Assembly (NCBI GenBank): GCA_947179485.1
Contig: OX359249.1
Location: 38,488,250 to 38,552,249, forward strand
Reading direction: 5' to 3'
Source of the DNA: Allacma fusca
Taxonomy: Eukaryota; Arthropoda; Collembola; Symphypleona; Sminthuridae
Length of the DNA: 64,000 nucleotides
Below are positions 6,701 through 58,840 of this stretch, piece by piece (position 1 is the stretch's first letter; each line of letters begins with the position of its first letter). Below the pieces are notes generated by a model that worked only from the letters and a program-made list of their open reading frames with translations, was not told where the DNA came from and did no database searches. The translations under genes were made by a program, and so were the position numbers.

Positions 6701-8506
6701 TTTTCGCTCTCACTTGTAGTCTGTTCGTTTCACGGCTCTAGTAAAAGGACTTCTTAGAATAGCAAACTTAATAACCGAAGATATTATGTCCTAAAACTTG
6801 TCACTTGAATTCCATGTTCTGTCTGCTGTATGAGACGCCCACGTCCTGAGGAGACCCCTAAACAATACGTCACGGGAAGGCCATGTGTATGTACATCTGT
6901 TTTTTTAACTCATCCTAACGATTTACTTCATGCTTGCTTGAAGGTAAAATATTTGCACACATGATAGAAGACCTGCAAATTAAGCGGACCATGCACTTTT
7001 TATCCAGTCATACTTTTCTAACATAAATTATTGAAGCATGGTCTTCTGGTTATTCATGGTTTATATTTTGGCAAGCACGTTCACATCTCTACTTTTAAGC
7101 ATGCATATTTCCATTTGCTGCTTTTCAAATTGCAGTTCCATGCATACATATACAACAGCACCTTGTCCGTAAAATACTGTAGTTTTTGTCCGTGGACTTC
7201 CACAGGGGTTCTATATCAGTCCTGTCTCATCCTCAACCATAGATTTAAGTCTGATTTCATATTCTAATCATACATACATTCAAGGTGTACTTCAAAGTCA
7301 CGTGGAATTTTCCGTTTTTTATTAGGTAGGCTTTTTTTGCTTTGTAATATTATTATTTCGTGTCCCAATCGTGGTATGAATCCGTTCCGCTTGAAGGAAA
7401 TGATTACCCTTCAGTGTAGTTTATAGCTCATGTTGATCTCCCATGTCTAATGATTATTGGGAATCCAGACTCAATCGTGTTATGGTCCATAACTTTCAGT
7501 TTTCCTTTATACGTACAAATGAATAGCTTGTGAGGGAGTATTTTTTACTAATACCAGCCAATACTCGGCTTTAAAATTGAGTAAATAAATTTCCTGTAGG
7601 CTTCCAAAACGTATGATTTATGAGACTCTCATATAGATTCATGCAGTTGATTCCAAGAGGCCATACCATACTTCCAAAAAACGACTACTCGATTTTCTCG
7701 ATGTGCCCCGTAATAAAAATAAAATATTGGTGACAAGTTACAGTGTGTTTGTGCTAATTGTGAGACTAACGACCGCACACGGTGACAATTGTGACAAGGT
7801 TTCGGTCGTATATCTCTCCTTGATTGAATCCAATTTCCTTCCTAAATAGTTGTTTCTACGTTATGACTGTACCCAACTGGCTACCAGCATGCATTCTCAT
7901 AGGAGCACAGAATCGGATGTGGATTAGTGAGAAAGTATTTGCGTATACAGTTTATGTTATTTTTTCTATTTTCACGCGCACGTTTTCTGTCCGCTGGTAG
8001 GATATTAATGGTGTTTATCCTTTCAAATGGTTTGAAATCACTCTAGCAGTCCGAAGAAGGAAAATGTCACGGGAATGATACTTCAATTTGGATTACTGTA
8101 ATTCTCACAACGCTGATGTTACTGTTTCTGGGAAAGGAAGCGTGCAACATATGAATTTCTGTCATAGTCAACATACTTGTGTGCATTAAAAACATTTTAC
8201 TTGATACTGATACTTGCCAAACAACTGGAGACATTTATTTCCTCGTGTGGGCTTACTACCAGTTCTACTTGACTCACAATTAGAAGTCAGGAATTATGGA
8301 ACGAACCGTCAGTCATCTCTTTGCTGTGCTTTCGGCACGTACTTATACTTTCAGGGTAGTTGGAGCTGGACCCGGACATCATGAGAATCGTATGTCCACC
8401 CGAGACATTTTTGCCAGTTCCAGTTAATTTCAGTGCAGTGGGATAAATTTTACGCATGATATATAATTATTTCATTACTAGGAATCTACCATTTCGCTTT
8501 TGGAAA
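720..8506. other. Long gap: presumed synaptogyrin 3' UTR, then intergenic DNA up to gene A
   Basis: No exon-like frame with splice sites or a recognisable protein is visible on either strand. The small open frames here (at most 104 codons, e.g. 2516-2830) have low-complexity, Ile/Asn/Tyr-rich translations expected of AT-rich noncoding DNA. The first AATAAA signals after the synaptogyrin stop are near 2481 and 2589, so a 3' UTR of about 1.8 kb is possible. Later ones occur near 4917 and 5667. A short imperfect hairpin with AATTATATGTA arms lies at about 4196-4251. Confidence 0.5.
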
Positions 8507-11207
8507 ATGTGGTCCGAGTGTTTAAAAGTACATGTGTGTGTGAAGTTTTTTAAAAGTGGGCGAACACTTTATCTTCCCTTTTTATGTAACATTACAATAA
8601 TACTGTTCGTACTAATTGGGCTTACTACAAGTAATGAGTTGCAGTACTCTGTGGAAAGCAATGTTAATATTTCGACTGAAAAGTTGTTTATGTGCCCGGA
8701 TTATCAGTTAAATAAAAGCGCTGTGGTTCGCATTCCCCCGCTTTGGACCAAGTCTAAGGAGAACCGACTGAATTTTAAGTAGGAAGCTGTACTAATTTGT
8801 TGAATAAATACCTGTCAGAATGTGTTATTAACAAATTATGTTTATCCATATTTATGAGTTGTTAACGTTTACAATTTACAATCAATTGTTTTGCAATAAT
8901 TATTATTGTACAGATTACAGGAAGGATTCCAGGGATGTGGGAACGAGAGTTTTTTAGTTGTGCTAGAAGAGCTTGTAGTTAATGCCAGTGAAGTAGATAA
9001 CGCCAATGTGGAAGGTTACATGGAATTCAATGGGTTTCTAAAGCTTCAGAACGATTTTTACCGCCCCTCAGAATACTGTTTGCAAGAGTAATAAAATCGA
9101 ATTGCCTATTTATTACACTGTAATATTTTGTTGTGACTGTAATAATTTCTTATGATCTATAATAAACACTTTAAACAATCGCTTGTACATAGGCAGAAGA
9201 CCGGGACGGTAAAGTTGAAGGTTTGCAAACCCACATGCTCGGGCATGACACCATGCATTGCAAAATGCTGCAGCTTTGGCAAGGTTTTAGATGGTATGGG
9301 CTGTGTGGAGATTGACGGGGAACAAATGGATTGGAAGCCACCCGTATTTACGGAAAATGGAGTCAGAGACTCGGATCCCGGCTGGCAACCACATATCAGG
9401 TCGAATCAGTTGATATGCAAATATTCGAATGGGACAGTACACAAAATGTACCAGTCTTGGCCTTCTGTTGATTTCACTGACGATGACGGCTACTTAGCTC
9501 ACAAAGAGTCGTATGTTTATATTATTTCCTGATTTCCGTGATGTCGCATGACCACATAACAAGTGCTAATAGTCAAACATAATTTTAATTAAATTTTTAT
9601 AACTAAGAGAAATTATCAACACAATATAGAATAAGGCTACGAAAAGACGGAAATCTATTGTTCTTGGGAAAGAAGCGTGCTTGGGAAGTGATACCACCGT
9701 CAGAATTTTGTATCGACGATTTGGAAACCTACGAAGAACACTCTGAAAGACCATTTATGATTGTACTATGTACAGTGGAGTCCGATATACATGTTAGAAG
9801 ATACATTTCTAGATTGATATGAAACTGATACGCATAGTATCTCCGGCATCTCCCAGTTACTGTAATTACTTAATTTTACAAAATATTTTTTTTTACAGGG
9901 AAGAATCACTTGGTTGTATGTAACGGCTATGTTCACCTCCGCGTTTTTCCTTTTTCTCACCGCTTTGGTCTACGGACTGTTATGGGACAAACATAATGTT
10001 CACGGCTGGACCATATTTGCCTACGTGACATCCATGTTTTTCTTATATGCTCTCCTCGGAGCTTCAAACGTTGTTGGGATGAGGGGAGAAGCTGAGGATT
10101 ACGACCCAATGCAAGATAGACTGATATGCTTTATAATTGGTGAACTTAAATGCACAAATATATATTTTGTAAGATTTCTTGAAATGGCTTTTTTACCTTA
10201 ATCGTTTATTGTTTTTAAAAACATTTAGGAATCTCAGGGCATCTGTTCTTCATATCAACGTTCTGCTGGTTGACTTTGATCAATTTTGACTTGTGGTCCA
10301 CTTTCCGGTACGGGCTTTTCCAAATTTACTGGAAAATATAATTACTTACACTTTTATCTCATTTCAAAATTAAATGATTACTGTTGACCAGAAAAAATAG
10401 TAATCATAGTGCTTTTATTTCAGTTCTAATAAACCGGTTGGAGAACGTTCAAAAGGGCTGAAACGCTTTTTATGCTATAATTTATTTGCTTGGGGAGTAT
10501 CAATAGCTGTCGTAATTGTTGGAGTGGTACTGGAATGGTTGTATCCGTAAGTTTATTTTATGTTCTCCGCAACAGAACTTCTCGTAAATATTTATGAGGA
10601 AAATAAAATTTGGCACGTGATTGAAACATTTAGAGAAACTGAAAGTGAAGTGGTGGTCCCTCTTTATGGTCAAGTAAATTGTTTTATCGCACCCTGGGCT
10701 AAGGGCTACTATGTGTACTCCATCATTGGTCTCCTAATGATCATAAATGCTATCTTTATTGTTCTGACATCCTACACCATTTATCGGTTTAGCGAGACTA
10801 CTCGCATGGTCGCCCACAGTAGATCTGGTGGAGCTCAACAGTCGTAAGAATGTCTTGTTTATTTACATTTCCCATTATTTATCCACTGTGGATTCTGAAG
10901 GATGAATTCTACTTTTTTATTTGTACATAATATATGTGCTCAGGTAGTCTACTAATATGTTTATTTTGATTCCCTCTCCAGCTTCAAGTTATTCTCCAAG
11001 CTATTTGTAATCATGGGGGTTACCTGGACTTTTGATATCATATCTTGGCTCTTTAGTCAAGACACTACAATAATGTACTCGGTATGGATTATTCTTGATC
11101 TACTCAACATATGCCAAGCCATAGCAATCTTTGTGATCTTCATATGCAAACAAAAAACCGTAGAGCAGCTCCGACAAAAGTTCCCTATTTTCAGCCGTAA
11201 GAAATGA
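8507..11207 (+). CDS. Methuselah-like adhesion-type GPCR (gene A), complete, nine exons
   Basis: Exons by phase and splice consensus: 8507-8778, 8914-9087, 9193-9510, 9630-9792, 9899-10139, 10229-10307, 10424-10546, 10634-10843, 10982-11207. This gives about 601 aa. A hydrophobic signal segment lies at about residues 21-40. The start could instead be the in-frame ATG at 8456. The ectodomain (about 45-305) carries the Methuselah signature: an early Cys, YMEFNGFLK, EYCLQ, VCKPTC, PCIAKCC, a second C-terminal half with RLRKDGNLL and FCIDD, and a final Cys in IVLCTV. Seven helices follow (about 313-585), with family motifs KHNVHGWT after TM1, FDLWSTFR after TM3 and MGVTWTFDIISW in TM6, then a short basic tail. 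The fourth exon has no ATG and would be missed by a simple ORF scan. Methuselah receptors are secretin/adhesion-like 7TM proteins at the plasma membrane, linked in Drosophila to stress resistance and lifespan. The ligand here is unknown. A candidate poly(A) signal AATAAA lies at 12167-12172. Confidence 0.9.
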
Positions 11208-19340: not shown

Positions 19341-19465
19341 GGCTGAGTTTTACTTTCCCGGCCACAAAACTACCTACCACCAACCTACCACCAACCTACC
19401 ACCAACCTACCACCAACCTACCACCAACCTACCACCAACCTACCACCTCATAAAGAAACACTATA

Positions 19466-19665
19466 NNNNNNNNNNNNNNNNNNNNNNNNNNNNNNNNNNN
19501 NNNNNNNNNNNNNNNNNNNNNNNNNNNNNNNNNNNNNNNNNNNNNNNNNNNNNNNNNNNNNNNNNNNNNNNNNNNNNNNNNNNNNNNNNNNNNNNNNNNN
19601 NNNNNNNNNNNNNNNNNNNNNNNNNNNNNNNNNNNNNNNNNNNNNNNNNNNNNNNNNNNNNNNNN
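19466..19665. other. Assembly gap (200 N) inside the 11-bp repeat array
   Basis: A run of exactly 200 N sits between two identical 11-bp repeat blocks. The round length suggests a placeholder rather than a measured size, so the left arm of the Foldback element is of unknown length. Confidence 0.95.
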
Positions 19666-19976
19666 ACCTACCACCAACCTACCACCAACCTACCACCAAC
19701 CTACCACCAACCTACCACCAAAACCTACCACCTACCACCCTACCATACCAACGTGCCCAACCAACATCCCCTACCAACATAAACTACAAACATACCCTAC
19801 CACCGTACCCTTCCAACATACCCTACCAACATACCCTACCAACGTACCTTACCACCGTACCCTTCCAGCATACCCTATCAACGTTCCCTACCAACTTACC
19901 CTACCAACATACCCTGCCGCCATACTCTGGGTACCAATTCCTTACCCCCATAACCTACCACCAACGGATCTAGGCT

Positions 19977-20130
19977 TGGTGGTAGGTTGGTGGTAGGTTG
20001 GTGGTAGGTTGGTGGTAGGTTGGTGGTAGGTTGGTGGTAGGTTGGTGGTAGGTTGGTGGTAGGTTGGTGGTAGGTTGGTGGTAGGTTGGTGGTAGGTTGG
20101 TGGTAGGTTGGTGGTAGGTTGGTGGTAGGT
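19977..20130. repeat. Tandem 11-bp repeat array, inverted relative to the left arm
   Basis: About 14 nearly identical copies of GGTTGGTGGTA form the right arm of the Foldback element. They read as the reverse complement of the arrays at 19371-19448 and 19666-19722, so the two arms can pair into a long stem. Confidence 0.95.
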
Positions 20131-26100: not shown

Positions 26101-27224
26101 CCAGTGCAAGCATTCACAGATTTGACACTACTGAAACAGTCAACCGGTCAATATTAGCCCTTGATTGGAATTTTTCTTCGCTTCCATTGTCTTGGCTTCG
26201 TATTTCACACATCATTAGCGACGTATTTTCATTACATCTGTTTTGGGTGAGACCTATTAATGCGAGAAGATTAGTGCGAATAGTATTTAATTCTTATATA
26301 GATGTAGAAGACTCAGAGGCAAGTATCTGTATGTATCAAGTGGTTGCTCTAAATACACAAGTAATACAAAAAGTTGAAAGGAAATCCTGGATAGAAATTC
26401 GGTAAAAAATAAACCCTCAATTTTTTTGTGGGTGCTGAGGTAGTCAATAGTCAAAACCACAATGATTCGGGTGGAGGCTCCTGTTTAATTGCATGTTAGC
26501 CACACCTGCATAGCCGATAGTCGATCATATATTAGATGAGTTTGTATTTGTCTTGTTTTGGGTCCTTTGTTATTTTGTAGGGCGGTTAAATATAAATAAG
26601 CTTAAAAGCCATCTTCACGGTATCATCATACCGCATTTCATCATAGAGGCGCAGGAAATGATTCCTTGGGGCAAAATGTCTCGAAACTAATGAATCATTG
26701 TTTTTAATATTGATGTCTAGTAGTGCTTGTGTGCACTTAATTCATGTAATTGAGGTTGGATGTAATTGAGAGATAGTGACACTGAGTCCCTTACGATCAC
26801 TCTTTATCGAAAGTTTAGGCATCCCAGGACTCCCGGTGACCTTGCATAGTGTTTTATGTATGCAAACGTTGATTTGAGACTTGAGTTGAAAGGTATATTG
26901 CATTTAATAAGGTGTGCCATATTTCCCAAGACTTTTTTTTTTTTTAGCCAAGCGGCTTTCGTATAATTATCACTTACACTTTTAGGATGATTGATTCGGG
27001 TCTGTTGTTCCCTATTCAACTGTATGCACTAGAATTAATTACTCATCAGGGATGATTATAATTATGAAAGTCAACAAATTGCAAGCATCATCAAGTGTTA
27101 TTCAAGCATCTTATCTTCCAAATTAGTTTTAATTCAAGCTCATTGCAAAATGTTTGATTGTCAAATGGTCTTATCTTTTCAGACCTTGATGACCGTCAAA
27201 CGGACTAAAAGGGCAAGTAAAAGA
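20171..27224. other. Gene-poor stretch between the Foldback element and the secreted-protein gene
   Basis: No supported gene on either strand. It holds one small inverted-repeat element (21082-21219), short ACAT-type simple repeats near 20740-20760 and otherwise featureless AT-rich DNA. The end of the stretch (before 27182) should contain the intron or 5' exon of the following gene: TTATCTTTTCAG ending at 27181 is a good acceptor. Confidence 0.5.
21082..21219. mobile_element. Small inverted-repeat element (MITE-like), 138 bp
   Basis: The perfect 15-bp ends TGAACTAATAGCATT (21082-21096) and AATGCTATTAGTTCA (21205-21219) are inverted. Weaker pairing continues inward through AGATTC/GAATCT-type segments, and there is a short internal stem CTCTTGATTCAAGAG near 21162. 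No clear target-site duplication is visible, so family assignment is open. It could be a MITE or just a stable hairpin. Confidence 0.5.
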
Positions 27225-28265
27225 ATGAAGATTTTCGGCCTTTCCTGTATTTGTTTTTGGGCCCTTCTGTCAAATGCAGTAGTGCATGGGACTTCCACAA
27301 GCCCTGACTTGGCAATAGCTGGAGGCCAACACCAATCTGAGAAGTCAACAGACTTTATGGTAGTCAAGAAGAAGGATGGCTACAAAAAGAAATTCATCAT
27401 CAAAAACAGTGCGGATCAAGTTGAAGAACCGACTCTGGCACTTGAATTAGATGGTATCTTAAATCAAACTCGCATTAACCATGAGCGGCAGAAAAGACAA
27501 TCTGATGCAACAACGGAAGTTGTGGGCTTACGACTCAATCAAGCAGCGATGAATGGCGGAGAGTACAATACGCTGAAAAGAGGAGCTAGATCTGTGAACA
27601 ACCGGGCTAAACGTAGTATTAATTTCTCGTTTTCTAAATTTTTTGACGTCACACCCAAAAATTTTTTCCGAACCCGGAGGCGACTTCAAGTTCCTAAATA
27701 CGGACCTCCCGGCTACACTGCTCCACCCGTTGTTTATTCCTCTGCACCTATCCACACTGCTCCACCTATTGTTTATTCCGCTCAACATGTCCACACTGCT
27801 CCACCTGTTGTTTACACCTCTCCAGCCGTTTGGCTCCTTCGAAATTTTGTGACCATGACCCAACGTTTGTTCAATGCTATTAACTACAACTACGACTTGG
27901 CACGGAGATTCCTTCTCTCCCTCCCTATTCAAAGTAGCAGTATCCTTCCGAGAGTTGTCGTCACCAATCCGCGAGGCGTCACCTGTGCTGATGTGTGCGA
28001 TCCTGAGGGAGGAGTTGGTTATGGAACCATTGGAATTTGTACGGAAAAATTCTGTAAATGCGACTTCAGCACTTGGCAATTCACTCGTTATGACTGTCCC
28101 AGAGACTGTGTATTTGATCCCCTTCGCCTGGTTTGCGACTATCCTCAAAATACCATTTTATGTTCTGATGACGACGACGCCGACGACAATATCGATGATG
28201 ATGGGTTTAATTCTTACAATAACGACTGGCAAGGGCAAGGTGGTTATGGGGGTTACAGCAAGTAA
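27225..28265 (+). CDS. Secreted protein with furin-like sites and a CBM14-like Cys-rich domain
   Basis: The start is taken at the ATG opening MKIFGLSCICFWALLSN, a clear signal peptide. The frame is open from 27150, but a good acceptor (CTTTTCAG, ends 27181) suggests an upstream 5' exon. The product has 346 aa. It contains an N-glycosylation motif NQT (about 80), dibasic sites RQKR (about 88-91) and RAKR (about 127-130), then TRRR (about 150). Three repeats of the type TAPPVVYS follow (about 164-200), as in cuticular or mucin-like proteins. A Cys-rich domain (about 254-313) has spacing C-x13-C-x4-C-x13-C-x12-C-x8-C, and CDYPQNTILC at its end resembles the chitin-binding CBM14/peritrophin pattern, with three extra cysteines. 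The tail is acidic (DDDDADDNIDDD) and then Gly/Tyr-rich. It is probably processed and extracellular, perhaps matrix- or cuticle-associated. Chitin binding is inferred from spacing only. AATAAA lies at 28629-28634. Confidence 0.75.
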   Translation: MKIFGLSCICFWALLSNAVVHGTSTSPDLAIAGGQHQSEKSTDFMVVKKKDGYKKKFIIKNSADQVEEPTLALELDGILNQTRINHERQKRQSDATTEVVGLRLNQAAMNGGEYNTLKRGARSVNNRAKRSINFSFSKFFDVTPKNFFRTRRRLQVPKYGPPGYTAPPVVYSSAPIHTAPPIVYSAQHVHTAPPVVYTSPAVWLLRNFVTMTQRLFNAINYNYDLARRFLLSLPIQSSSILPRVVVTNPRGVTCADVCDPEGGVGYGTIGICTEKFCKCDFSTWQFTRYDCPRDCVFDPLRLVCDYPQNTILCSDDDDADDNIDDDGFNSYNNDWQGQGGYGGYSK

Positions 28266-30590: not shown

Positions 30591-33500
30591 CTATTTCAAT
30601 GTCAGATCATTATTTGAATTCCCAATGACGGTGTCTTTGGTATCAGTGTAGGCTTCACTGTAAATCTTTTTATCTTTAAGATGTAGTCTTCTCAAGATGG
30701 ACACACGCGGATATCTTTCTCTCAGCTGCTTCAAAGTTTTCTTGCTGCAGACAAAAATCCAAAATATTCCGAGTGCATGGAAGAGTCTGTAGGACTCCAG
30801 GATTGAGAAATATATGGAGAACTGGAGGAGTTGCGCATAGTTGAAAAGGAATTCAAAAATCAGGAAGAATCCCATGAGCATCATAAGCTTCCCAATGAGG
30901 ATAGTTCTGTAATTAATCACATTTCATTTATCTTTATGTAATTACTACAATTAACTCTAGATAGTCGTGTACATGGTTTCTCAACACATTTGCCATCCTT
31001 TGTATCACAAAATGCAGTAACGCCTAAAATATTTGATTACCGTAGTTTCTAGACAATTCTTTTTCAGGTTTTCTAACATATGTTTAATTGACATATGTCA
31101 ATTTTTATGTTCGTAGGAGTCGCAGGAATATCGATTCCTCCGGATTTTTATTACAGCGGTTATTTATACCTACGGCCAATTTTTGGAGAATATACATATA
31201 TGACACATTTTTTTAGGAAATTTTATGAGCTTTCCAGGACGCTAGTTCATCAGTAGGGAGCAAGGTTTGCAGAAAATGGGAACTACAGCGAGAAAGATTT
31301 AAGAAGGAAGAATTTTTTCAAAGCAGAACTGGAAGTTGTAAAATAAATTCAAATCGCTGGCCTCGTAGCAAATGTAAATGGGACTTATACATAGACAGCT
31401 TAATATGAACAGTTGAACAACCCAAAGTTAAAACTTGCAATCGAAGAACATAAAAAATGTGGTGCAAGGATTTAAATTTCTTTTATACGATGAATACCTT
31501 CCAAATATCTAATAACCCTTCATCACCTTCTGGTTCCTGAGGTGCTATTTCTGGACTGTTCGTATCAAACTGTGTATATATTCTCATATAAAGCCATCGG
31601 CTTCGAGAATGGAAAGTACATAATTATATATCACATATATACCTACTAGTTAGCCTAGGTGTTAATTGTTACTCGGAAATCCATAGGAGTGCGTTTAGGA
31701 GAGACAGCGAAGATTTAATTGTCATCATCGTCTTATGGTATAACATGAATCCCAACGAAAATTGCTACAAGTCCTCTTTTGTTTTTTTTACACCGGAAGA
31801 TCTGCTTTACGAAATGGAACGACAAGCAATTCTTCCTTCTTCACGCCTTCCTCTTTTTCCTAAGACCGAATAACTCCTAATCTTGCTTACATTTAACGCT
31901 CGTGTCCACAAATCCCCGTGCAGAGACCTATGAATTAGTGTACTGGAAAGCCAATAAAATTTCCTACAAACAAGCGTCAAAATATGCTCTTTAAATTTGG
32001 TGTGAGCAAAAATTAAAATCAAAATCTGTAAAGAGCCAAATTTTGTTTCACGTTTGCAACCTCAAAATTAAACTACGTCAATGAAACAAATTTTAGATAA
32101 TCTGAAAATGAATTTGCTACAATCTACGCGAATCCAATATTTCACGAGTTACTCCATTACTCCATTATGAGGCAAAGAGAGACAACTGTTTTGCATGCAC
32201 CCTGTGCATTCATAATTCAAACTCTTTTTACTTTTATTTTACGGTATTTGCGAAAGTGACTACTTACTTTTTCTCAAAAGTGCTAGTTTTGGAAGAAGTA
32301 TTTCCCTTCTTTAATACTTCCACACTTTTCTTTGCATCCCAAAGACTTTTGAATGTCAATGATGCAAATCCAAGGTTAAATGCGAACAGTAGGGTATTTG
32401 TCAACCCGATGTACAGTAAAAATGATTTGGGTTTTGTGATAATGCACCGGTCATGGTATCCTGGGACCACCACTCCTTTTCCATCCATTCTGTTAACAAA
32501 ATCATCCAAATTTGTTTAAACCCAAAGCGCATAACCACATAAACAACAAAATCAAAACAAAAGGCTAAAATATTATATCTCACTCAAAAGAAAATTCCAT
32601 GGCACAAGCCACAGCCACGACCAACAAAGGAACTCCAACGGCGATACATGCGTACCAGAGAAAACGTTTCTTCCCTTTTGAACTTCGCGAAGTTGGCGTC
32701 ATCGAACTACAGAGGGAGCATTAAGACAAGTTTCACAACTGAGAATACTTGTACACCTCCCATTAAATCACAGACGAAAGGAAACTTCTTACAATTAAAT
32801 GCAAATTATACTTGACAGCTATTGCATGCAGTTGATTATACCTATCAATTAAACTAACCTGATTTTGGCCCAAACATCAAACGTCATAACTGTAGTCCAC
32901 GAGAATGTACTAATTGAGAAGAAATGATGTAAAACCCCTGAAACCAGAACAGTTACTCACTTATAGTTCCATTACTTGAAAACAGGAAGCAATAAATACC
33001 TTAGTATGTATATTATATACATATATTAATGATGTAATTGATCATAAAAATTATCAGGTATTACCAATAGTAACGCAGAGATTTGTGAGGTCCAGCAGAG
33101 CAACGGCAACGTCTCCGAATACAAAGCTCCCCAGCAAAATACAAAGGAAAACATACAGAAATAGCTGAGAGAATGAAAATGCCATGACAGTCCAGCCATG
33201 AACATTCTGCTTGCTCCATAAAGATATATAAACGAGTATGGTGGCTAGGTGAATTATTGCACATGGCAAAAGTACCACAAAGAATAATATTTGTGTGCGT
33301 AAAATTGTCGCATTAAGTCTTTCCAGATTCGGAGCATTGCTAGTATTACACCGTGTCACAATCACTTGTGCAGTATCAGGATTGTATCTCTTTGACCTTG
33401 ACATGTTCCAGAATCCATCAATGCAGAATTCGACGGGGCCATCCCCTGAAAACATTTCTTCCCACGATACTCGATATTTCTTCCCAGGCTTTCTTGTCAA

Positions 33501-36451
33501 AATTCGACCGTCGGATAAAACACGAAATCTACAGTCAAATAATTATTTTGAATTAAAAATTATACTTACACCAAAACTCTTCTCCCTACAAGCTCAATAT
33601 AAATCTCAAGGAAAAATACATTACTCCGATCTCTGATGCAAGGATTCAATGATAGAATCGTTTCCACAATCCCAAGCCTTGATCTGTCCATCATAGTTCC
33701 AGTGAAATGTAGGCTTCAAGCGGTCCTCACTCTCATCCATTATCTCATTCTCATAAATGTCCGGCATCCAGTCACCATTCAATACAAAATTGCAACCGAT
33801 TTCATCCGGACCAAATTCAGTCATGACAGCTCCTAAGTAGCAGCATTTCGGAATGCAGAGGTTCCTTCCCTTTTCGTTGTCGTCGTGAAAACATTTGGAT
33901 TTGCAGAAGTTGACTGTGAGGGAGTCCTCAGTAATGCTTTTTGAGATTGGTCAAAATTCAATATTTTTACAAGACTTTATTTACAAAACAAATACGCAAT
34001 CACGCAAGCAAGGAGCGATAAATTACATTTTACAAAGTGCAAACAACTCTTTAAACATACCTCGACAGGCAGAAGTTATCTCGGTGAAAATAAATTTCAT
34101 CAGTTAGAGCATCATTGGGATCTTTCACACCTCGTAAATCTTTTACAATGTAAGCAATATAGCCATCTGGTGTAAAATTCAAATGAGTAGTTTGATTTTT
34201 TCCTCCCACAGTCAGACCAGTCACATTCCCCGTACTGACAGTGACAGTAAATATGTCTCCCTCACACTCTGGCTCTCTTTCCTCAAGGGAGAAGTCATAC
34301 AGGGAAGAGTAGTTCATAACTGTGATGAAAGACTCTAGCTTGGCCTTGGAATATTTCAACCGGAGCGAAGGCGGAATAATGATGGAATCTTTTCCTACAT
34401 CTGATGAACATTTGTACAAAATTGTTCGTTTCCCTAATGAAACCGATGTCTGATCCGGTTTCTCATTTGACTGACCACTACAAGACAATGCAATGGTCTC
34501 AAAAGTTCCACCGTCTCTCTGAATGGTATCGATGCAATTTATGTTCCGCTCCGTTGATGGTGTGTTCCCCATCGTCAACTTTTGGCTGAAAGCCATGAAA
34601 CTACAATAATTAAACATGCGCTTTAGGTTTTAGATTCCATAGAAAATGAGGCAGTCGTATCATCACAATAATGATTTATGTTTTTACTTCGCATAAGGAA
34701 GTCACCATATAGAAATGATTTAAAGGTAACATTACATTATATGTATTTAGAACCAATTAAATTTCTTGCGTTGGCTTACTCTTCTCTTTCCTTTAAATGG
34801 TAGATTTTTGAACCTTTTGAGCAAAAATCTTGGGTGAAATTTTGAAAAAGGCTTTCCTGGATTTGAATATCCGGGAAATGGGTGTCCTCATCGCTGTTCA
34901 AGTACTCGGAAGAGATTAAATCTTTGAGAAGGTTGTTAGTGGTGGTGAGGCAACGAAATGCTTTCTTTTGAGGATCCTCTTGGAGGACAGCGGTTTGAGG
35001 GCAGCACTTTGGAGCGCAAATATTACCATTGGGATATTTCTCTGAGGGACAGTGGAACTCACATAAATCCAGAACTACACCGTCGGATGTTGCACTACAA
35101 AGAACATAAATTTATGTGAATCATCCGAACCAATTTCGACAATAACTTCATCAAAGTAGACAATTCGACTAAAAGAAATCTGTATGTACTGGAGTCATGC
35201 AATAAGCTCAATCCGTGGTACATTTAACTTTTTGTCGCGACGGGAGGCCGCAGCGGGTGCAACAGAACAACTAAGAATTTGTGTCTACACATCTTTAAAT
35301 GTCTTTAATCGACATACGGCGATCTCGTCAATTCCTTACTTGTAGTAAGGTGATTCTGGTAAGACTATACGTACTAAAGAAACACGTCAATAAAATATTC
35401 AAATAGACTCCTACAACCTGCCGTTTAAACTGTCTACAGATAGAAATCTCTCCTATAAATAATAACCATTGAAGGAATTACAATACACTTCTACATCATG
35501 TTTCGCAACGTGTAGCAGTCATCATATACGTTGTACATACACAATTCAGTAGAGAATGCATTCAAAAATAAACGTAGTCTATATAGCATTGCATATCTAT
35601 ATAAATTTCACTTTTAATAATGAGGCCCAAATGTAGCAAGTAATCATGGGCTGCAAAAAAAAAGCGGCTACTTTTTTTCTTTTTTGTTACTCATAATAAT
35701 TACATGCATCCGGAATTAACTACTTGGATGACTCATTACATTCCGAAAACTGGATCAATAACAAAAGAGCTTTAATAACTCATAGGCTTCCAAGTTATAC
35801 AAGCTAATCCAGTAACTGCTGATAGAGACTGTCAAACAATGAAGGCTACATGTAATGGAAATGCCAGGGCTTAAACCCCTCTATAATTTAGAAATATCCT
35901 AACAACTGCCTTTAACTCCATTCTCAGATTTAGTTTTTCCACTTTTCCAGCTTGTTGTGTAACCAAATTAATTATATGTAATTATTGTCTTCTCTTTTCA
36001 AGCTCAGAATTCTAGTGTATTCAGAAATAAAAACATATTTTTTTTACTTTGAGACGCAAAAATGACCAGGTCTGATGTAGGTAACTTTTTCCCCGTCCTG
36101 CCTCCGTAAATATCCATCTTGGTTGAGTAGGTACGGTTGAGATGAATTGCTGGACTGAGAAGTGTCACCTTTTTTAGAGTACTCAATCTTCACTGTGACA
36201 CTTTGTCCTTGACATTGAAACTCTTGATTTCTCGGAATTAAAGTATAATTGTACACTCTATCTTCAAGTGTGGCGTTTGTTTTTTTCGACGGTTCTGTAA
36301 AACTGAATGAAGTCAGTTCCAGATTTGCTGAGCATTTGAAAATTGGCTTAGGAGGTTTTTGGCTTACACTTTGTAAATTTTGGCCACTGGTTAATATCAA
36401 CAAGTAATACAGTAAAAACTGAATAAATAGGTAACAATGTCTTGATTCCAT
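30591..36451 (-). CDS. Methuselah-like GPCR with a duplicated ectodomain (gene B), complete, nine exons
   Basis: Minus-strand exons in transcript order: 36451-36048, 35094-34780, 34600-34061, 33936-33625, 33528-33065, 32937-32859, 32706-32584, 32489-32268, 30906-30591. They total 2775 nt, or 924 aa, and all phases agree. A signal peptide occupies about residues 1-23. Module 1 (about 35-285) has QDGYLRR, GHFCVS, CEFHC, ICAPKCC and NCIDT, and ends in IALSC. Module 2 (about 295-580) repeats the order: YKCSS, PDGYIAY, DNFCLS, FCKSKC, LCIPKCC, LSDGRIL, FCIDG, VTRC. Seven helices follow (about 585-850), with KQNVHGWTV after TM1, FDVWAKIR after TM3 and KGKKRFLW before TM4, then a tail of about 55 aa rich in charged residues. 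The known family has one ectodomain module, so this is a tandem duplication within the gene. TM6 reads MGFFLIFEF instead of the usual MGVTWTFEI, which may affect signalling. The exon 4 acceptor (CTCAAAAAG) is the weakest splice site in the model. Confidence 0.88.
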
Positions 36452-43364: not shown

Positions 43365-45535
43365 ATGAGTATATTTTATCATGTGGTGGCCACACTCCTA
43401 ATTTTAGCTGAGTACCTTCCCTGGCTAGTACTAACAGCATCAGTAGTCAGCATCAACAAATGCCCTGGAAGTTCTTTGGGAAATAGATTGTACGTCCCAG
43501 CTTCTGCTGTCAACTCGCTGGAGCGCGTTACATTCAGGTAAGCCAAGTAAAAAAACAACTAGCCCCAGTCGTTCCTCCTCCAGCTGGTTAATACCTGACC
43601 CAACATAAGTTGTTTAATGGCAGTACTCATTTTGACATCAACATGCGTTTGACTTTTTATCAACATTTGGGATAATATATTCAAAACACTTCCATGAGGT
43701 CAGCCAGTTTTATGGAAATGTGTACTTATACTTACTTTTGGATACGTCAGAAAGATATTGTTAGGGTGTGCGTTTTATTTACTTTGCAAAGTTCTACATC
43801 CTCGGGTCTAGACATTCCTATCATTAAGTTTATGCACACACTTACATACATACAGAAAGTACTATACAGTAACTACTGATCTTTGGAGTCTTATTATTGT
43901 TAGAACTTGACACGTTCACAGTTGATATGTTTTAGCTTGAGCTCTACCGAACCCCCTTTTTTTATTTACATTACAATGGATACAATGACCAAATAATGAC
44001 TTTACTGCTGTTACTTCTTGGGCACAGAAAAGAATTCGCTCATATGTAGATACACCATAAGATGCTTTCAAATAGCAAACACAAGCACTTTACATTTATT
44101 TTCATACAAGTGGCCGCCCTTGAAAATATTTTCAGTCTATTTTTTTAAACCTATTACTCATGATTTTTTGTTTGCTCAGAGATAAGTAAACATGTTTACT
44201 ATATTAATAGCTGCATATATTTGCAGTTGTGATCAGATCATAAAACATGTGCTTACAAGTGATTTGCAATTTTTTTTTCACGTTGGTGTCGATTTGATGT
44301 CTATTGAAAGACTTCTTTCAAGTAATGAGTTTAGCAAAGGGTGCAGCAATCTACACAGCAATCAATTTTACTACAACTATAGATAGTAGTTAGGAATTGC
44401 TTTGTTGTAATTTGTAATTACACGGTCTCTTACGATAACAATTATCGAATGATAACCTTTCCAATGATGTAGCGACATGTTGGGGAAATCGAATTTCTTT
44501 TTTCTAACAGATCGTAAGGAGATAAAAACTGTGTATGACTCTTCAAAGAAGCAATAGTAATAAAAACAATTGTTCATTTTACAGGTTACGGAATGAGTTT
44601 AAAGCGTGTAAAAATGAATTACACTTTGCTTCAGAACTGCGTGCTGATACTAGTTTAAAATCAAATGACACTATAGGAGAGATTGGACTTAAAACCATTG
44701 ATATGTCATACTTTACAACGGATGGTTTGCTACGCCATGGAAGTGACTATTATTACCCGGAGGAGTATTGTATTAGTTCGTGAGTTATTGATTCATTTTA
44801 TTTTATGACAATGGTTATAGTAATTCCAAATTCCAACTATCCCTTTGTGTGCCGTGACCTGAAAAAAATAATGTTAATGCAATTTCACACCTTCTAGCTT
44901 TTCCGGTGGTAATGTGAAAGCAACAGTTTGTAAGCCTTTGTGCAAACGGAATCGCCCTTGCATTCGGAAGTGTTGTCCAATAGGAGAAGTAATGGACATG
45001 GAGAGTGCGGGTTGCAAGCCCGCTGGAGGAAAGCTATGGTCACCAGTTCTCTACACCAATGAGACACACAACCTCAGTGATGAGGAGAGAGAAAAAATTA
45101 GACCACATTTCATTAATTTACCACCAAGTTGTAAATACTCCAATGGTTCTGCGTCAGAGGAATACTCATCAATTCCTTTGAGACCATTACGAGTGAATGA
45201 GTACCAATTGGAAACAATTCCGTGAGTCTCCTCAGTATTAATTTTTTGTTTTGCTGGAGCATTTATGGTAACTCATTTGCACATGTTTTATTAATGTTTT
45301 GTTAACCATGACATGGAAAAAATGATACTTTTTAAACAGCATGAGGCTGCTCAAGGACGGAAGCCTAATTTATTATGCGATTACGGACAAGTGGGAGACA
45401 ATTCCAAAGGACCTCTTCTGCATTGATGGAATGCAAAACTTTGGTGAAGTCAAATCTTACACAGGATTACCGAGTGACCAGATTGTCTTCTCATGTGTGG
45501 ACTACTACACAGCCAACGTAATACGACAGACTTAA
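43365..45535 (+). CDS. Methuselah-like ectodomain-only protein (gene C), predicted secreted
   Basis: Exons 43365-43537, 44585-44779, 44898-45221, 45340-45535 join in phase to 888 nt (295 aa). Residues 1 to about 28 form a signal peptide (YHVVATLLILAEYLPWLVL). The ectodomain is intact: SINKCPG, a KAC segment, EEYCISS, VCKPLC, PCIRKCC, SCKYSNG, RLLKDGSLIYY, LFCIDG, and a last conserved Cys in VFSCVDYY. Ten residues later the frame ends at TAA (45533-45535). AATAAA follows at 45554-45559, so the mRNA can end here. Introns and phases match gene A exons 1-4, and A and C are the closest pair. No seven-helix exons are visible downstream to 49.6 kb. A donor-like GTAATA sits at 45518, exactly where gene A leaves exon 4, so C probably arose by loss of splicing into the 7TM part. 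It is likely a soluble binder or decoy. Cell-surface attachment by an unseen exon remains possible. Confidence 0.85.
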
Positions 45536-52587: not shown

Positions 52588-55235
52588 TGGATGTAATGTA
52601 ATGTAATGACCTTATTGTCGAATCAACGTATTACAGGCACTGATTTCCGGTGACAAACAGTTTATATTTTTTGAGCTAAGATTAATAAACACATAAATAA
52701 TACGTAGAATTTCAACTTATAAATAAAGAATGTATTCATATCATAGTCAGATCTTTGGGCAATTAGCCACTTACTCAATTTGAATTGGTAATCTTTGCTA
52801 TTGCTTTGTGTGTGTAGATCTCTTATTATTCGATTCCATAATTTTGCAGCATGATACTGAATTGAAGTGTGAAAGAATGATGAAATTATTATTATATTAT
52901 TTATTAAAATTTTAAATAAGATATAGTACCTAGTAACTCGCTGGGGATTTGTCTTGATTATTTCAATTAAGCAGTCAAGTTTTCAGGTTGGGATAAAAGG
53001 GTTTTAGTAGTTGATACAGTTGTTGAAAGGTATCTTTCAATAAATGTCAAAAGTCCAAATGCCTCTTATAGATGATTAAGGTCTATAATTTGTTTTGATT
53101 TTTTCATTACTAGTAAATAAGTATTGATGTGGTTTCAGAAAGTTGAAGCTGTAGTCTTTTAGACATTTTAGGAAATGGTCAATAGTTTTTTGGCATTTTT
53201 TCAATGGAATATCAGAAACCCAAAATTAGTAGGGCATAGTCCACGTGAGAGAGACAGAGATTTAAAAACTATTTGCATAAGTTTAGTGTTAATAAACCTC
53301 GTGTACTTGATAAGTGAGGATCATGTACGGGATATAATTTTGTTGCGGAGTCATCAAGAATTCCACAAAGTCATTAAAAATACAACAAATAGAATAGGGA
53401 CTAAACACTACCTCCAGGCACTATCGAAAGTTTTCTTAAGATCAATAAATAGTACAGCTACCATAACGCTATTCTGTAGAGCTTTATAAATACGTTGTGT
53501 CAACTCAATAAAAGCACGAATTATTGATTTTATTATTCTAAATCCATACTGGTTTTTAGACAAGAGTTTACGTCCAGGTTGTCAGTCATTCTATGATTCA
53601 AATAATTTGGAAGTGAGGTGTAAAATGGAAATTGCTCTGTAGGAATACGGAAGGTGGATTTTATTATTACGCTTTAGTAAAGGCGTGATTATAGCAGTTT
53701 CCCATTCCATAGGAAAGTTCCCTGTATAGAGAGCATTATTGAATATTTTGCAAAGAATGTGAGCAAAAATTCCAGGAAAAGCTTTGTACATTTTTGCCAG
53801 ATGAAGACAGTACTAGAATTTCCTTTGGTTCGTTTAATCAGGAGTTCAACCCCATGCGGAGTTACATGTAAGTGGTTGGTATTACAGTTACGTTTCTTGA
53901 GATTATTAGAAATTTGGAGAATATTTGCATCTTCATTATCGTGGGCTAGAGTAAATGCTTTTGATAGTTCATTGGACATAGATTCACTATCAGTGAGAAC
54001 CTTATCATTTATATTAAGTTAAATCATATTCGTACTGCTAAGCTTCAAACCGACAAGATGTTTATAAGTATTCCAGGATTCTTTTGACATGCTTTCTTTA
54101 TTTATCATGAAAATATTTTTGCTTAGCATTACAAGTGTTGTTACTTTGTTCCTACATTTTATAAATTTATAAGTTTCCCACGCTTCAGTAGATATGAGTT
54201 CATGCATCCCTGCTTTTGTAAATGGTTTTTACAATGAATTTGTATTTAGTAGTACAAGTGAGCCTTACAGCAGGCTTGGTTTTTACGTCTAATTATAATA
54301 GCATCTAGCCGATCATTTATGCTAAACAGTATATTTTCAAATACATCAGGTTTGCTCTTGACTGTGGTAAATTCCTAACTATTTGCCATTTTGCATTTCT
54401 GAGTTCATCGCCAGTAACTGAATCCAGTTAATGTCTTTAATTTCGCGTGGTAATAATATTAAGCGCGCAGTTTAGCTTATGCTTTTTACGAATGATAATA
54501 TAATATAATAACCCCAGATGATTTAACGTAATCTATATTATTTGTACACACATCATCAATACTAGTTTTACTAGTTAATGTGGTTCTGGTTGGGAATTTA
54601 ATTAATTGGGTAATGTTTAGCCTGTCAGTACATTGAAAACGGAATTTAGTGCTACTGCATGGTTTTGACATATCTATATTAAACTCACCTATTATAATAA
54701 TATAGTTTGGTTTAGGAATGTAGTTTACTATGTTAGTGTGTTCGACAGAGAAGCTGTCCTCAATACCAGCATGTCCATGTCTATAGGCAGTAACTATTAT
54801 CGAATGGCGTGTTAATTAGTTTGATATTTACTTGAATAATTTCAGCTGATACTATATCGCGTTCTATAGATTCAGTAATTAGTTTATCGTTAATGTGCAT
54901 AAGTAGACCTCTTCTTTGTTTGGATTTTCTATCCTTCATATACAAATAGTAACCAGGGATTGTGAGTTTATTGTCATGGGAATTATTATTAAGCCATGTT
55001 TCTGATAAGCACAATGTCTCGGTATTACTCATTCAGTAATACCGAGAGTTCATCCGTTCTGAGCTTGATGCTACAAACGTTAAGGTGCATAATAACGAGT
55101 CCTTTAGGTATGTTGTGACCAGTGGTAGTGGGCATATCCAAAGCGGAGGAATTATTTGTGTCAAAAAATGTCTCGTTACTATTCCCTATTGCCAAAAATA
55201 TTGAATTTAGAGAATAATTCATGGTTCACTTAGTT
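52588..55235 (-). mobile_element. Nearly full-length, decayed LINE (CR1/Jockey-like)
   Basis: Reading the minus strand from 55235: the start of an AP-endonuclease domain (GLVIMHLNVCSIKLRTDEL; 55222-55025), its middle (CLSETWLNNNS, IPGYYLYMKDR; 55032-54781) and its end (TQLIKFPTRTTLTSKTSIDD; about 54600). Reverse transcriptase follows (FPMEWETAIITPLLKRNNK and YRAISILHLTSKLFES at 53791-53591; VMVAVLFIDL near 53460). The typical C-terminal phrase HAAKLWNRIIRDLH is near 52850, then stops, an AATAAG-type signal and a tail of ATTAC repeats ending near 52588. About 2.65 kb is present, with many stops and frame changes, so it is inactive. The simple-repeat tail marks the true 3' end. Confidence 0.8.
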
Positions 55236-58020: not shown

Positions 58021-58840
58021 ATTTCGCCCACCATTATTTCAGTGAAACATTAAAAAACAAAGGTTACCAAACAATGGCAATGTCATGAAATAAATAAATA
58101 TTATTGTACAATTCTTATACAACTGAAATGGACCGGTTGGCTACAGCAATTCTCACAGCCTTATTTCGTCTTGAGGAAGTACGCTACGTGAGCTAACTGT
58201 AGTTGCCCGTGTCCGTGGGGGAGGGGGGATGTTCGGGTTTTGCTTCGTCTTCCCCCATCGGTAGCAGAATAAGCTTGGCAATGGGACGCCTGTATACCCC
58301 GTCCGAGGTTTTGATGCTGACAGTTGTGACCAACTCCTTGTTGTCGTTCGGATTGAGATGGACCTTGAGGACTCGAGCCATATTCCATCGTTGAGGAGGA
58401 AGATTTTCTTCTTTCACCACTAAGCTTTAAAATAAAGTTCTCAAGGACAGTTGGATAGAATATGACATCTTTAAAGCATATCGAGATCATTTCTGTATTT
58501 CGCTTATGAAGCAGAGTTGCTTCTACCTTGAATGATGTCTTGTTTTGTCCTAAATCTGTCACAACCTCTGAATGTATTAAATAGCTTTTGGAAACGCTCA
58601 TTCAAGTCGCTGCAAGTGACTGCAAAATAATCCTTGTTTTCTGTTGGCACAGTTTCTAAATGTATAAAAACCATGAAAGGTTGAGTTATTTTGAGCATAA
58701 CGCCCATGAATGTGGCTTACACATCCGTCATCTGGCATAATATCCGTGGCTATATTCACAGCCGGAAGTGCTTGCACACCAACATGTGGAGACGGTTGTA
58801 TTTGATTTCTACGATCTTTATAACATCGTTGCACTCATTG
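58021..58840 (-). mobile_element. BEL/Pao-like LTR retroelement fossil, 3' end of pol
   Basis: The minus-strand frame at 58420-58193 contains KEENLPPQRWNMARVLKVH, then VSIKTSDGVYRRPIAKLIL and LPMGED. This is the C-terminal domain (DUF5641 type) that follows integrase in BEL/Pao polyproteins. A purine-rich stretch (GGTGGGCGAA) just before TGTTAACG at about 58021 fits a polypurine tract and LTR start. The upstream part to about 58840 is readable in pieces but not recognised. The copy is partial and broken, with several interruptions. Confidence 0.7.

Follow-up and report, generated by a model that had tools for sequence, protein, structure and literature searches.

A Methuselah-like gene of Allacma fusca without a seven-transmembrane part, predicted to encode a secreted ectodomain

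Methuselah and Methuselah-like receptors are class B GPCRs that carry a cysteine-rich ectodomain (PF06652) and a seven-transmembrane part (7TM; PF00002). Does gene C, a Methuselah-like gene in a stretch of 64,000 nucleotides (the window) of Allacma fusca, encode only the ectodomain of such a receptor, or does its membrane part lie elsewhere? The window was placed on chromosome X1 (C5), at 38488250–38552249, of assembly qeAllFusc8.1 (PMC10427803). Splice enumeration yielded 24 open combinations with GT/AG borders that differ by small shifts. The longest was chosen; it comprises four exons, a coding sequence of 888 nt and 295 amino acids:

43365–43537, + strand: exon 1, with the ATG, the leader and the first Cys (residue 33); from splice enumeration, with the hydrophobic peak at residues 7–25
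44585–44779, + strand: exon 2, ectodomain with Cys 66 and Cys 120 (YYYPEEYC); from splice enumeration and paralogue alignment
44898–45221, + strand: exon 3, the Cys-rich core VCKPLC..PCIRKCC and Cys 201; from tblastn to gene A and a sub-cut-off match to Pfam Methuselah_N
45340–45535, + strand: exon 4, end of the ectodomain (FCIDG..FSC) and the read-through tail VIRQT; from tblastn to gene A
45518–45523, + strand: GTAATA at the phase-0 donor position of the family, seven residues past the last Cys as in gene A; from paralogue comparison
45533–45535, + strand: stop codon TAA
45554–45559, + strand: AATAAA, a possible polyadenylation signal 18 nt past the stop; such a signal also follows 9.2% of background stops

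The predicted protein has a single hydrophobic stretch, which is N-terminal: the best 19-residue Kyte-Doolittle mean is 1.93, at residue 7, and the best value beyond residue 40 is 0.63. Judged by hydropathy only, a leader is therefore present and a membrane anchor absent, and since a second hydrophobic segment is lacking the product may be secreted. It contains twelve cysteines (33, 66, 120, 134, 138, 144, 148, 149, 162, 201, 258 and 283) and four N-x-S/T sites. The signal peptide and the Methuselah cysteine motifs described in the initial annotation were thus recovered as a leader-like N-terminus and a complete family set of cysteines, and the AATAAA lies where it had been placed.

The assignment of gene C to the family was assessed by comparison with two further Methuselah-like genes in the window:

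8459–11207 (outer limits approximate), + strand: gene A, the sister of gene C; a Methuselah-like receptor whose exons encode both the ectodomain and the 7TM part
30591–36451, − strand: gene B, Methuselah-like receptor; its open model of 919 amino acids combines two ectodomain modules with a single 7TM part

In a tblastn search of the window, the ectodomain of gene A matched exon 3 (E 1.6e-13) and exon 4 (E 3.3e-5) of gene C, a similarity far above chance, and a whole-genome search with the ectodomain found, at E < 0.001, gene A together with eight other loci. Pfam Methuselah_N matched the whole gene C protein with 17.6 bits (E 0.0041) and its exon-3 piece with 20.5 bits, both under the cut-off of 21.5; at E up to 10, it recognised 4 of the 18 exon-3 pieces taken from the genome. 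Weak scores are also given for divergent members in the source consulted, namely Mthl15 of the fly and a homologue from Daphnia (E 0.00012), and the same source defines the Methuselah ectodomain by ten cysteines (PMC4768249). In an alignment of eight ectodomains, gene C has a cysteine in all 11 Cys columns of exons 2–4. The joined membrane exons of paralogues gave 7tm_2 (PF00002) matches in three of five sets (40.8, 63.7 and 42.2 bits; cut-off 20.6); the sets of genes A and B had no relevant Pfam match, yet they align to those of the other paralogues.

An NCBIfam search gave no match. Searches of the sequences of solved structures returned no Methuselah structure and one match each, to an unrelated enzyme (E 1.7) and to a designed repeat protein (E 0.022, with no single passing stretch), both taken as chance. 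Modelling exon 3 alone, with three window sequences as input, gave a structure of too low quality for use (pLDDT 43.7). A whole-genome family search with PF06652 gave zero matches, as did its 14 controls, and was set aside as evidence.

Gene A has its end-of-ectodomain donor after 9792 and its TM1 exon from 9899. Gene B, whose model was chosen from six open full models, is a predicted double-ectodomain Methuselah-like receptor: its two ectodomain modules, the first of which lacks the last Cys exon, are joined in phase to a single 7TM part. The second half of the gene alone also gives open models, but their leader is unconvincing by eye. Gene C had been described as adjoining two full receptors; this stands for gene A, while gene B, with its two ectodomain modules and 919 residues, is no plain full receptor.

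The rest of the window contains several unrelated features. An 11-bp minisatellite, ACCTACCACCA, extends over 19372–20130, includes a 200-base N run (19466–19665) and ends in an array of a similar unit in the opposite orientation (19971–20130). At 27039–28265 on the + strand lies a frame open from stop to stop, 408 residues long and with an acidic tail, which shows a weak, sub-cut-off match to chitin-binding CBM_14, obtained with a query whose start was incorrect. Retroelement-like pieces occupy about 53.4–58.4 kb on the − strand, among them a reverse-transcriptase fragment at 53408–53581 (E 6.6e-4, sub-cut-off) and a DUF5641 match within 58193–58426. An Rfam search of the window gave no match.

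A membrane part of gene C was sought at increasing distances. Within the window, no sequence other than genes A and B is matched by their membrane exons at an E of 0.05 or less; in the 90 kb that flank it (30 kb upstream and 60 kb downstream), the strongest membrane-exon match has E 0.068. The 78.5 kb past the gene C donor (18.5 kb within the window and the 60 kb downstream) were also searched with profiles for five membrane exons, in which stops are tolerated by reading them as X; the best match has E 0.17. As a positive control, profiles built without A and B recovered the five membrane exons of A and the five of B at 2.4e-8 to 1e-26. Two whole-genome searches with membrane exons gave 155 matches (listed in part) and 70 matches (all listed); among the matches listed, those on X1 fall in gene A, in gene B or in the loci at 28.96 Mb and 36.22 Mb, and none lies downstream of gene C. 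The seven-transmembrane domain by which a Methuselah-like receptor is recognized was therefore not found for gene C in the window, its flanks or the genome survey, nor by hydropathy. Seven-transmembrane exons before 49 kb, named beforehand as the result that speaks against an ectodomain-only gene, did not turn up in the search for them.

We next asked how often an ectodomain of this family occurs alone in the genome. At least 57 loci with an exon-3-type ectodomain were collected; this is a minimum, since the search leaves all but its top candidates unscored. Of these, 53 have their own TM1 match 328–1025 bp downstream on the same strand, one has another TM match at 1244 bp, and one (L031, C8:31914463) has TM1 and TM5 in the fetched sequence. 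A membrane exon thus lies close downstream of 55 of the 57 loci, within 1.25 kb in 54. The two others are gene C and an ectodomain fragment with an in-frame stop (L030, C1:70993548), for which no significant membrane match was found in the fetched 3 kb, about 2 kb of it downstream. Gene C is consequently the only open ectodomain locus among the 57 collected without a membrane exon; on X1, four TM1 matches pair with the other four of the five ectodomain loci. The description of gene C as ectodomain-only holds: that it has no 7TM exons is now backed by a survey of the whole genome in which controls were included.

Three loci suspected of missing TM exons (C1:31471585, C10:43472808 and C10:5736689) each have TM1, and C10:53652537 (L024), with E 3.4 in the ectodomain search, gave no match in the fetched sequence and was dropped as chance. 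The at least 57 loci represent a large Methuselah-like expansion on C1, X1 (C5), C8, C10 and C12, with clusters at C1:32.27–32.46 Mb and C10:5.63–5.77 Mb, the latter including three loci with identical scores. One locus on C10 (L025, 5731500–5741499), closely related to L026, has an ectodomain and TM1; no later membrane exon was found at E up to 0.01 in the approximately 4.4 kb fetched after it, and it is possibly another shortened family member.

The end of gene C had been put forward as an argument in itself, the reading frame closing shortly after the last conserved Cys with AATAAA nearby. Position 45517/45518 is the phase-0 intron donor position of the family, exactly as in the sister gene A, and the last five residues (VIRQT), which follow it, were therefore probably read from a former intron. 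Of the 20 paralogue loci fetched, 14 were examined for the end of the ectodomain together with gene A, and the end of one locus (L016) was not placeable. The resulting 15 genes (A, C and 13 loci) have a phase-0 GT 2–11 residues past the last ectodomain Cys; these GTs were picked by eye, and a GT somewhere in this range is not rare by chance. It lies at exactly +7, as in gene C, in 5 of 14 paralogues (A, L013, L014, L015 and L023). The acceptor beyond the donor was read by eye in gene A only, and gene B is an exception, its exon continuing from the ectodomain into the membrane part. Reading past the donor meets a stop after 3–39 codons in the 15 genes, after five in gene C. AATAAA follows the read-through stop within 60 nt in 2 of the 15 and follows 9.2% of 379 background stops, so that the AATAAA of gene C can be a chance occurrence. 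Since the end of gene C looks like a former intron read through, the neat ending is a weak argument; both VIRQT and AATAAA are obtainable by reading into an intron, and the evidence for truncation is therefore the missing 7TM exons.

A repeat test of the first 3 kb past the donor gave matches at no fewer than 39 other places in the genome, every one of them to an element near 47.72–47.81 kb. All listed matches hit this one element, and the test thus revealed no widely repeated element immediately after gene C within these 3 kb. The element itself measures about 60–97 bp and recurs in at least 39 other places at 81–90% identity.

Taken together, our results suggest, with moderate confidence, that gene C was once a receptor gene, has lost its 7TM exons and now gives a secreted ectodomain. 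The main alternative is that it is a recently truncated, non-functional relic, in which the 7TM part was deleted too short a time ago for stops or frameshifts to accumulate. The retained donor position and the accidental look of the tail are consistent with such a relic, and truncation occurs in this family here, since the fragment on C1 (L030) is a relic with a stop and L025 has no later TM match in about 4.4 kb. Against it, no disabling change was found across the 888 nt coding sequence and the six splice borders, and all family cysteines are retained.

To judge the age of such a truncation, the divergence of gene C was compared with that of its relatives. In a tree of eight ectodomains (exon 2 missing in one row and cut in another), gene C groups with gene A with a support of 0.912, and A is its nearest relative among the eight compared. 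The branch of gene C has a length of 1.00, versus 1.97 for that of the full-length gene A. In four conserved blocks, C and A differ by a pN of 0.34 and a pS of 1.01 (saturated); because the blocks were chosen for conservation, this only leans towards constraint on amino-acid change during the divergence of the two genes. Since the frame is intact and the branch shorter than that of A, a secreted product is favoured over an old pseudogene. In simulations that assume one indel per ten substitutions and three quarters of indels disabling, a neutral copy remained intact in 55%, 29%, 8.8% and 2.4% of runs at 0.5, 1, 2 and 3% substitution, respectively. A truncation within about 2–3% substitution is compatible with this simulation, and because a neutral copy stays intact in 29% of runs at 1% and in 8.8% at 2%, a recent truncation would look alike. 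Either gene C is still constrained or the loss of its 7TM part is recent. We regard a non-functional relic as unlikely, although it is the strongest of the alternatives.

A second alternative is that the donor at 45517 is still in use and joins exons of another kind, for example for a short tail or an anchor. The shared donor position would fit such a gene as well, and GTAATA is as good a donor as the GTAATG of L026, a paralogue with TM exons. However, no candidate exon was noticed, the membrane search having covered family-like exons, and this structure appears improbable. Finally, it is very improbable that gene C encodes a complete receptor and that its 7TM exons escaped the searches through a long intron, an assembly error or strong divergence: although the whole-genome search scores best candidates and its 155 matches were listed in part, profiles built without A and B still found all ten membrane exons of these genes, no N run lies between 19.7 kb and 124 kb, and 54 of 57 ectodomain loci have their membrane match within 1.25 kb.

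Under the favoured reading of a former receptor gene, gene C would have arisen as a duplicated Methuselah-like receptor gene, sister of gene A, from which a deletion or rearrangement removed all exons beyond the end-of-ectodomain intron. Translation would then continue past the former donor for five codons of the old intron before meeting the stop, and the AATAAA beyond it could serve to end the mRNA. The leader would direct the product into the secretory pathway, where the protein would take on the disulphide-rich fold of a Methuselah ectodomain before its release. It might bind the ligand of its relatives, and compete with membrane receptors such as A for this ligand or carry it to them. From the sequence we infer transcription, use of the 3' end, folding and secretion, and more loosely, by analogy, a function as ligand binder, decoy or carrier. 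We also put forward, tentatively, the possibility that selection maintains gene C as a dedicated source of secreted ectodomain, by which the ligand of the neighbouring X-linked receptors would be buffered or carried.

Gene C shares the leader, the Cys-rich ectodomain and the exon layout with Methuselah-like receptors, but the 7TM part that accompanies 55 of the 57 ectodomain loci of the genome is absent from it. Secreted Frizzled-related proteins are stand-alone genes that hold only the ligand-binding domain of a receptor and whose function has been tested; gene C would likewise hold this domain alone, in a different receptor family. Soluble N-terminal splice variants of the GPCRs CRF2, RXFP1 and mGlu6, which in the source consulted are proposed to mop up ligand, are released ectodomains as predicted for gene C, but they are spliced from full receptor genes, whereas no membrane exons were found for gene C (PMC3477067). 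Among the matches listed from open-licence PMC papers, no published secreted or ectodomain-only Methuselah protein was recognised. A soluble receptor relative is thus a known kind of protein, and a stand-alone gene of this kind in the Methuselah family was not found described in those papers.

To our knowledge, most Methuselah-like receptors have no known ligand, and a natural soluble Methuselah ectodomain, should it prove real, would provide a ligand trap ready for use. Gene C would also show how a new protein end can come from a former intron. If the product is real, the Methuselah family would, like several other receptor families, have given rise to a secreted regulator.
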